A stretch of DNA of 64,000 bases from contig SHZK01000002.1 in NCBI GenBank assembly GCA_009692305.1, positions 248,001 to 312,000 of the forward strand. Reading direction: 5' to 3'. The position numbers were made by a program, and so were the translations under genes. The notes beneath the pieces are model-generated. The model saw only the letters and a program-made list of their open reading frames with translations. It was not told the DNA's origin and did no database searches. This document shows, piece by piece, positions 17,077 to 33,579 of the stretch; position 1 is the first letter of the stretch, and every line of letters begins with the position of its first letter. Origin of the DNA: Gammaproteobacteria bacterium. GTDB taxonomy: Bacteria; Pseudomonadota; Gammaproteobacteria; Pseudomonadales; Pseudohongiellaceae.

Positions 17077-17109
17077 TTGTGTTTGCAGTGACACAAGAAT
17101 GTGTTGTGT
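17077..17109. repeat. Alternating TTGTGT / ACACAA / TTGTGT arms upstream of the RAYT-like gene
   Basis: TTGTGT 17077-17082, ACACAA 17091-17096, TTGTGT 17104-17109: two overlapping inverted repeats. Confidence 0.7.
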
Positions 17110-17159: not shown

Positions 17160-17189
17160 TTGACGCGTCTTTCCAATTGCGTTAACTAT
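17160..17189 (+). promoter_or_regulatory. Putative sigma-70 promoter for the RAYT-like gene
   Basis: TTGACG, 17-nt spacer, TAACTAT, about 95 nt upstream of the ATG at 17284. Confidence 0.4.
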
Positions 17190-17283
17190 ACGCGGCGACT
17201 CTGGCAAAGGGTCAGCTCTAATTCTATAGATATCCTGGTCGCATAAACCCGAAAATCCAAAAACTACAATAAGAGACGGCAAC

Positions 17284-18258
17284 ATGGCCAGACCCCTGAG
17301 GATAGAGTTCCCGGATGCGGTATATCATGTATTTAATTCCGGATTGGGCAAACAACACGTGTTTCCTGCCGCAAAGTATTTCGAGGCGTTTCTGGAAGGA
17401 TTAGGCGAAACGTGTTCCAGATTAAATGTTGAAGTACACGCGTATTGCCTGCTGAATGACAAATATCATCTCATCGTAAAAACTCCCGAAGCGAACCTGA
17501 GTCGTTTCATGCGTCAGGTCGACGGTCTTTACACCCAGAATTACCAGCGTCTGAAGGGTGCCGAAGGCTCCCTGTTCAAGGGTCGTTATAAAGCGGTGCT
17601 GGTACAGGCTGACAAGTGCTTGTTGCCTCTGTCCAGATTCTTGCACAGCAAGATCAAGGCTTCGGAGCTCAACAAGTATAAATGGTCTAGTTATGGTCTC
17701 TTCACCCACGCAGCCAAAACACCTGCCTGGTTTAACCGTGATGCCACCCTGAAGCAATTAACTAGTGTTGCTGCTGCCAGGCGTGCTGGCGCCTATGTAA
17801 AGTATGTGGCTGCAGGCGTTGATGTCGAACTCACGCATTTCTATGGCAAGAAGAACCTCTCTTCCATTATGGGGGACAGCAATTTCGTCAAGTCGGCCCA
17901 GAAACAGCGTTCAGCAAAGACTGTGCGCGGCGTCTCCCGTGGCGCACATGCGCAGTGGCGCCCCCCGTGCAAACAAATCATTACGGCGGTAGCGGGACAG
18001 TTCAAAGTAACTGAGAACAGTATCTACCAGGCCGCACGCGGCCCTGGATCCAAGAATGTACCGCGCTGGGTTGCGATGTATCTGTGTCAGGAGTTGTCAG
18101 CCGTGACTCTGCAATCGATTGCGAAGTTGTTCAAGCTGAAGCGGTATGGCACCGTGTCGACTACCGTTGGCAAACTGAAGCAGGAATTTGCGGTTGATCC
18201 AAAACTGCTTGCCACGGTCGAGAAGTTGGCAAAACAATTGAGCTACCACAAAAAGTAG
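17284..18258 (+). CDS. IS200/RAYT-like (Y1_Tnp) protein with degenerate catalytic motifs and DnaA domain IV-like C-terminus
   Basis: MARPLRIEFPDAVYHVFNSG and GSLFKGRYKAVLVQADK are RAYT family hallmarks; C-terminal PRWVAMYLCQELSAVTLQSIAKLFKLKRYGTVSTTVGKL resembles the DnaA domain IV helix-turn-helix. Confidence 0.88.
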   Translation: MARPLRIEFPDAVYHVFNSGLGKQHVFPAAKYFEAFLEGLGETCSRLNVEVHAYCLLNDKYHLIVKTPEANLSRFMRQVDGLYTQNYQRLKGAEGSLFKGRYKAVLVQADKCLLPLSRFLHSKIKASELNKYKWSSYGLFTHAAKTPAWFNRDATLKQLTSVAAARRAGAYVKYVAAGVDVELTHFYGKKNLSSIMGDSNFVKSAQKQRSAKTVRGVSRGAHAQWRPPCKQIITAVAGQFKVTENSIYQAARGPGSKNVPRWVAMYLCQELSAVTLQSIAKLFKLKRYGTVSTTVGKLKQEFAVDPKLLATVEKLAKQLSYHKK

Positions 18259-18312: not shown

Positions 18313-18353
18313 AAAAAAGCCGGTATTTCTCGAAGGAAATACCGGCTTTTTTT
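18313..18353. terminator. Bidirectional intrinsic terminator between the RAYT-like gene and rpmG
   Basis: aaaaaagccggtatttc-tcgaag-gaaataccggctttttt: long perfect stem with A/T tails on both sides. Confidence 0.9.
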
Positions 18354-32658: not shown

Positions 32659-33579
32659 ATGAATTTTCCAGAGCAGTATTGGGAACTGTTGCGCGCACGC
32701 TTTCGGAATCAGTTTCCTGAATTCTATGCGAAATTGCCGGCTCTGGCTGAGCTGATTCGGCTCAACAAGCCCATCGGCATTTATCTCCTGCTATGGCCGA
32801 CTATCGGCGCATTGTGGATCGCGGCGCGAGGCGTGCCCGATTGGTCCCTGTTGTTTATCTTTATAATCGGCACCGCCGTGATGCGCTCGGCTGGCTGTTG
32901 TGTGAATGATTTCGCCGATCATGTCATCGATGGACAGGTACGGCGCACGGAACAGCGCCCACTCGTGCGCGACGCTCTCACTCGTCAGGACGCCCTGCTC
33001 TGTTTCATTACCCTGTCGCTGCTGGGTTTTGCCCTGGTCTTGCTGACCAACCAGAAAACGATACTGCTGTCCTTTGCGGCGATAGCTCTCGTCGCCATCT
33101 ATCCATTCATGAAGCGTTACACGAATCTGCCGCAGGTAATCCTTGGCTTGGCGTATTCCTGGGGCATCCTGATGGCGTTTGCTGCGCAGACCAATGCGAT
33201 TCCACAAATAGCCTGGCTCTTGTTTGTCGCCAATTGTCTGTGGACCGTAGCCTATGACACACAGTATGCGATGGTTGATCGCGAGTACGACTTGCAAATA
33301 GGGGTCAAGTCTACGGCGATTCTGTTTGGCGACATGGACAAAATGATGATCGCGCTACTGCAGGGTATGTTCGTGTTTGCGTTGTGGCTGGCGGGGCGGC
33401 AGCTGGAAATGGGGCTGATGTTTAATCTGGGCTTGCTGGTGGCCAGCGCACTATTGCTCTATCAGCAATTCCTGATCAAGGACCGGTTTCCCGGCCCCTG
33501 CTTCAAGGCATTTCTCAATAACAACTGGGTGGGCGCCGTAATCTTTATCGGCGTGTTGCTGGGGATGCCAATTAATTAG
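32659..33579 (+). CDS. ubiA: 4-hydroxybenzoate octaprenyltransferase
   Basis: LIRLNKPIGIYLLLWPTIGALWIA, RSAGCCVNDFADHVIDGQVRRTEQRPL, DTQYAMVDREYDLQIGVKSTAILFG. Confidence 0.96.
   Translation: MNFPEQYWELLRARFRNQFPEFYAKLPALAELIRLNKPIGIYLLLWPTIGALWIAARGVPDWSLLFIFIIGTAVMRSAGCCVNDFADHVIDGQVRRTEQRPLVRDALTRQDALLCFITLSLLGFALVLLTNQKTILLSFAAIALVAIYPFMKRYTNLPQVILGLAYSWGILMAFAAQTNAIPQIAWLLFVANCLWTVAYDTQYAMVDREYDLQIGVKSTAILFGDMDKMMIALLQGMFVFALWLAGRQLEMGLMFNLGLLVASALLLYQQFLIKDRFPGPCFKAFLNNNWVGAVIFIGVLLGMPIN

Follow-up and report, generated by a model that had tools for sequence, protein, structure and literature searches.

A catalytically degenerate TIRYT-derived protein of the Pseudohongiellaceae as a probable sequence-specific DNA-binding regulator

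The window (the whole stretch of 64,000 nucleotides analysed here) carries a gene whose product is probably a TIRYT that has lost catalysis, been domesticated and now regulates by binding DNA sequence-specifically; it probably also controls its own expression through the remnant left end of the ancestral element. In the clade formed by this gene and its orthologues (the dead clade), the catalytic motifs have been lost and the recognition helix is frozen. The clade has a single origin, has been inherited vertically and is under purifying selection, and the gene is accompanied by a conserved leader element and by no right end. The features concerned, all in window coordinates, are as follows.

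17084–17095, + strand: second conserved upstream element, TGCAGTGACACA; in its own genome it is present at this promoter alone
17160–17189, + strand: sigma70-type promoter, TTGACG (17160–17165) and TAACTAT (17183–17189), conserved in 77 orthologous upstream regions
17208–17227, + strand: leader element AGGGTCAGCTCTAATTCTAT, probable remnant of a left-end GGGGTCA repeat and candidate auto-operator
17284–18258, + strand: catalytically dead, domesticated TIRYT/RAYT-derived gene, 324 aa
17284–17718, + strand: Y1/HUH-fold domain, aa 1–145 (PF01797; top fold match 4ER8)
17461–17469, + strand: degenerate H-x-H, K60-Y61-H62, aligned to H59-M-H61 of 4ER8
17638–17640, + strand: F119, in place of the catalytic Tyr (Y115 of E. 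coli TnpAREP, by alignment to 4ER8)
17956–18243, + strand: DnaA domain IV-like HTH, aa 225–320 (PF08299; fold matches 1J1V and 3PVP)
18136–18177, + strand: recognition-helix segment LKRYGTVSTTVGKL, aa 285–298, in which RYGTVSTT is unchanged in 90/90 members
18313–18353, + strand: intrinsic terminator, an inverted repeat followed by a T run, visible in the sequence

Loss of the catalytic motifs and the frozen recognition helix

Pfam placed both halves of the 324-aa protein above cut-off, Y1_Tnp (PF01797) at 2.4e-5 with 24.9 bits (cut-off 23) and Bac_DnaA_C (PF08299) at 1.5e-9 with 38.2 bits (cut-off 31.5). A structure was modelled in ColabFold with 39 orthologues (mean pLDDT 82.9, pTM 0.71). 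Its best solved match was 4ER8, TnpAREP on its REP hairpin (TMt 0.72), and its C-terminal domain matched domain IV of DnaA (TMt 0.87 for 1J1V, 0.80–0.83 for 3PVP). These matches bore out the initial annotation, which had described a RAYT/IS200-like protein fused to a DnaA domain IV-like module; the open reading frame, the family N-terminus, LLNDKYHL, CLLPLSRFLHSKIKAS and the PRWVAMYLCQELSAVTLQSIAKLFKLKRYGTVSTTVGKL tail were likewise found where it had placed them. The NCBIfam model REP_Tyr_transpos (NF047646) gave 33.9 bits, short of its cut-off of 80, as expected for a degenerate member. The protein is not a DnaA, which would have an AAA+ ATPase domain together with domain IV: domain IV alone matched, and TIGR00362 scored 45.5 bits against a cut-off of 343.9. 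Of the features that define TIRYTs (RAYT group 1, TnpAREP subclass 2.1), the Y1_Tnp fold and the C-terminal HTH (Bac_DnaA_C here, out of Bac_DnaA_C, HTH_23 or HTH_28) were present, and the H-x-H, the catalytic Tyr and GGGGWSAS repeats at both sides were missing.

Active-site positions were read from a profile alignment of the intact relatives and the window protein to the solved TnpAREP 4ER8, in which window residues 60 and 62 aligned with H59 and H61, and residue 119 with Y115. The window copy has K60, H62 and F119, and lacks the NP that comes after the Tyr in its relatives; the aligned active site offered no other His or Tyr that could stand in. In E. coli TnpAREP, the Y115F change gives a catalytic mutant (PMC8266576). 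On the strength of K60, F119 and the missing NP, the window copy can be securely predicted to be catalytically dead. The earlier claim that its HUH motif had decayed to K60-Y-H62 was thus upheld by the alignment. The companion claim, that both candidate nucleophilic tyrosines had been replaced, stood for F119 and failed for C112, which replaces a family-conserved Tyr that is not the nucleophile and is still present in most dead orthologues.

The loss extended over the whole clade. Neither H-x-H nor NP was found in any of 90 distinct members, and N-H-Y-H, the Tyr and N-P were present in 21/21 intact outgroup relatives. Position 60 drifted across the clade (Q, E, G, R, K, S), Y61 was retained in 89/90 and H62 in 83/90, and position 119 held Y in 56 members, F in 30 and H in three. 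Lineage g2 (L112, L113, L143, L145), which is fast-evolving, had H-Y-Q and not Q-Y-H, with the first His present and the second lost, so that on this alignment its metal site is broken in another way than in the rest of the clade.

We found that constraint had shifted towards the DNA-reading domain. Mean pairwise identity of the HUH domain was 0.69 among dead-clade members versus 0.67 among the intact relatives, indicating that the two sets are equally diverged. For the HTH domain it was 0.77 in the dead clade versus 0.32 in the nearest full-length intact relatives and 0.41 in the GGGGTCAGGTCTT-type relatives, and for the recognition helix 0.965 versus 0.26 and 0.51, respectively. The helix of the dead clade was unlike that of the intact relatives, and its RYGTVSTT also differed from the DHTTVLHA of 1J1V, for which reason a DnaA box is not the expected target. 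The frozen helix is our strongest argument that selection would be preserving the reading of one particular DNA sequence.

Single origin, vertical inheritance and purifying selection

Of the 137 genomes covered from the GTDB family Pseudohongiellaceae, 93 had a full or near full-length orthologue, at 41–79% identity and in one copy per genome, except for genome G066 with two; Pseudohongiella nitratireducens and Pseudohongiella sp. O18 are among the named records. Synteny was fixed, the gene following cmoA and cmoB and being followed, in most genomes with enough flanking sequence, by rpmG-rpmB-radC-coaBC-algC-argB. At least some lineages of the window's genus are without the gene, and in gene-less genomes of that genus cmoB lies near rpmG. 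In a CmoB tree, whose root is uncertain, gene-less genomes fell among carriers at three places, which suggests repeated gene loss. In one genome of lineage g8 (G051:C19:36570-36977, locus L129) the dead gene was degraded and interrupted by several stops, indicating that it can be lost.

In the gene tree, the dead genes formed a single clade (100/100), separated from the intact relatives by a branch of 0.77. Across 18 independent pairs dN/dS was 0.007–0.14, with the HUH and HTH parts alike. Purifying selection on the orthologues, one of the checks proposed at the outset, was therefore evident, and the family-wide distribution, one origin and fixed synteny set aside the concern that this copy was a lone decaying pseudogene.

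Promoter, leader element and search for target sites

The upstream regions of 77 orthologues were compared, the coding sequences of which were mostly saturated at synonymous sites. The TTGACG and TAACTAT promoter elements were conserved among them, in agreement with the plausible promoter of its own proposed earlier for the gene, and the proposed terminator was also seen. The 20-bp leader block lies about 2–20 bp 3' of the -10, at a usual distance of about 13–20 bp, and most commonly about 45 bp ahead of the ATG; its information content of 29 bits is inflated by the anchoring of the alignment on the first nine bases. It occurred once in each locus carrying it and, at no more than two mismatches, once in its own genome, and most gene-less genomes had no close match. 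The element was absent 5' of the gene in the divergent lineages g2, g3 and g8, whose recognition helix is the same, and across the genomes of these lineages its matches were near background. Either the leader is not a universal target, or autoregulation would have been lost there.

Upstream of the intact relatives, at about -45 to -140, stands GGGGTCAAGTCT or GGGGTCAGGTCTT; several also have it in inverted orientation downstream, and several are flanked by inverted GGGGTCA repeats. The GGGGTCA repeat stands at about -45 in the nearest of these relatives, and the GGGTCA of the dead-gene leader is most often at about -45. The published TIRYT motif is GGGGWSAS (PMC3733652; PMC6006769), and the upstream repeats of the intact relatives fit it. 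Based on the GGGGTCA-type repeat of the relatives and on this motif, the leader is probably the old left end of the element, although the match is short, consisting of GGGTCA plus loosely similar sequence. Promoter-like hexamers lie 3' of the repeat in the intact relatives, and the promoter lies 5' of it in the dead gene, so that the arrangement would have been rebuilt in the latter. The dead gene has only the left-end-like AGGGTCAG element: in 71 of 75 cases no right-end TGACCC was found in the 200 bp that follow the gene, and in the other four it overlapped the stop codon.

Several further observations were made on these elements. The second upstream element, which lies some 65 bp 5' of the -35, was conserved across the genus of the window and was not detected in g6/g7; a GTCA is also present when it is read as the reverse complement. 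A structured 5' leader RNA was considered and rejected, as no Rfam family exceeded its gathering score and the folding z-score was 0.03. The genome of the window contains a second RAYT-type gene (L128, G000:C21:9552-10238) whose H-Y-H and Tyr motifs are intact and which is flanked on either side by GGGGTCA repeats. A single in-frame TGA, at codon 46, interrupts this gene, which is apparently a TIRtron that was broken recently. In genome G102 (L127, L211), many copies of GGGGTCARGTCT form inverted pairs about 40–60 bp apart, and cmoA and cmoB have one copy between them; elsewhere in the genus, most genomes have 0–6 copies. A correlation between absence of the gene and expansion of the TIR repeats was dropped, since G102 was the single genome behind it.

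Further target sites were sought with 19-mers, which gave more matches than a reversed-pattern control in 41 genomes, including recurrent pairs 405 bp apart. In the regions retrieved, these sites sat inside conserved coding sequence, mainly pheT together with other coding genes, and were rejected as a regulon. No second recurrent promoter site was found, the apparent ones being coding-sequence coincidences, and with the g6/g7 version of the leader the gene's own promoter alone was above background. A GGGGTCAAG match at window position 33301 was also discarded, as it lies inside an open reading frame resembling UbiA (from reading of the sequence) and was one match versus 0.64 expected by chance. 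The initial suggestion that the protein is perhaps a regulator gained from the frozen helix and the conserved leader, and no regulon was found to go with it.

Proposed function, alternatives and relation to known systems

The ancestor would have been a TIRYT (TnpAREP subclass 2.1.2, RAYT group 1), that is, a HUH enzyme of the Y1 type whose C-terminus carries a DnaA-like HTH and whose gene has GGGGTCA inverted repeats on its flanks, which presumably became fixed between cmoB and rpmG in the ancestor of most sampled Pseudohongiellaceae. The first metal-binding His, the NP motif and the right-end repeat would then have been lost, as would the catalytic Tyr in many lineages. We infer that the protein binds duplex DNA sequence-specifically, with the DnaA-like HTH reading the sequence and the inert HUH domain contributing folding, dimerisation or hairpin contacts. 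With less certainty, it may bind the leftover left-end repeat AGGGTCAGCTCTAATTCTAT and repress its own transcription, the position 3' of the -10 being where a repressor would block promoter escape. Such binding combined with autorepression would tie the frozen HTH to the inert enzyme domain and to a unique element at a repressor-like position. The benefit to the host would have to come from further targets or from a DNA-structural role, neither of which the sequence searches revealed. The main weaknesses of the proposal are that the candidate secondary targets were coding coincidences, and that g2, g3 and g8 lack the leader despite their identical recognition helix.

Other explanations were weighed against probable regulation. 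The protein could instead be a structural or replication-linked binder, its HUH fold sitting on hairpins and its HTH on duplex DNA, with a role in the nucleoid or at the replication fork and with the leader regulated by another factor. The HUH domain is constrained like the rest, as expected if binding of single strands or hairpins persists, the sequence searches yielded no regulon, and DnaA-like domains may target the replication fork (PMC6006769). This explanation is nevertheless unlikely, in that a leader unique to this gene and without a close match in most gene-less genomes fits autoregulation, and the link to replication has no independent evidence. Less probable still is that the dead protein serves as a silencer derived from the element itself, competing for the ends of intact GGGGTCA TIRtrons and thereby stopping their spread. 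The GGGTCA core is common to the leader and the TIRtron ends, the window's own genome has the GGGGTCA-flanked relative that retains H-x-H and Tyr but is interrupted by a TGA, and G102, the sole gene-less genome with an intact relative, has 139 GGGGTCARGTCT copies versus 0–13 in all other genomes sampled. However, nearly all other gene-less genomes have 0–1 copies, so that the case amounts to a single genome and shows no trend; the dead clade and the intact relatives have different recognition helices; and the gene is retained in genomes almost free of the repeats.

Residual or altered catalysis, in which metal binding and nicking of single-stranded DNA would persist in members with Q or E60, H62 and Y119, leaving the window copy as an outlier, is very unlikely. 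This combination occurs in 43/90 members, beside the widespread retention of H62 and Y61, and, by sequence, residual metal binding might persist in these relatives. It cannot, as judged from its residues, apply to the window copy, which has K60 and F119 yet is intact and whose Tyr-to-Phe change is that of the E. coli catalytic mutant. In addition, NP is gone in 90/90, position 60 drifts, and F or H replaces the Tyr in 33/90. That the gene is a decaying pseudogene retained by chance has next to no probability: the broken copy in G051 and the several genomes without the gene would fit decay, but 93 genomes have a complete or nearly complete copy, the recognition helix is invariant, and a dN/dS far under 1 already refutes decay for the clade.

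The regulator proposed here resembles TIRYTs (RAYT group 1, TnpAREP subclass 2.1.2; PMC3733652, PMC6006769) in its Y1 fold, N-terminus, length, Bac_DnaA_C C-terminus and GGGGWSAS-like upstream element. It differs in lacking the H-x-H, NP, right-end repeat and, in the window copy, the catalytic Tyr, in its vertical inheritance at one locus, and in an HTH that is frozen instead of diverse. E. coli TnpAREP (4ER8) has the same fold and overall positions of active-site residues, but is an active REP-processing enzyme without an HTH; with DnaA domain IV (1J1V, 3PVP), the fold of the C-terminal domain is shared. Domesticated RAYTs and DnaA-tailed RAYTs were already known (PMC6006769, PMC3733652). According to one survey, every aligned member has conserved catalytic motifs (PMC3733652), and the tree of another kept only sequences with HuH and Y (PMC6006769). 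No description of a catalytically dead, family-wide RAYT clade with a frozen HTH was found in the open-licence literature searched. A parallel is offered by the TldRs, which belong to the TnpB lineage and are RNA-guided. The concept is the same, a transposon protein without catalysis becoming a regulator, but the window protein combines a Y1 domain of the TnpA type with an HTH. TldRs are nuclease-dead transcription factors (PMC13418256). More tentatively, and at somewhat less than even chances, the clade may represent a transcription factor family made from a TnpA/RAYT-type Y1 HUH transposase, with catalysis gone, a frozen DnaA-like HTH and the left terminal repeat turned into an operator, fixed across most of a bacterial family.

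RAYTs have been described as domesticated, with a host function that is unknown and generally assumed to require processing of single-stranded DNA. A clade that dropped catalysis and kept its DNA-reading domain under stronger constraint suggests that selection can act on DNA binding alone. The clade also points to GGGTCA-type ends as a possible target of the DnaA-like domain, a question left open in PMC6006769, and the leader offers a short probe for what that domain may recognise.
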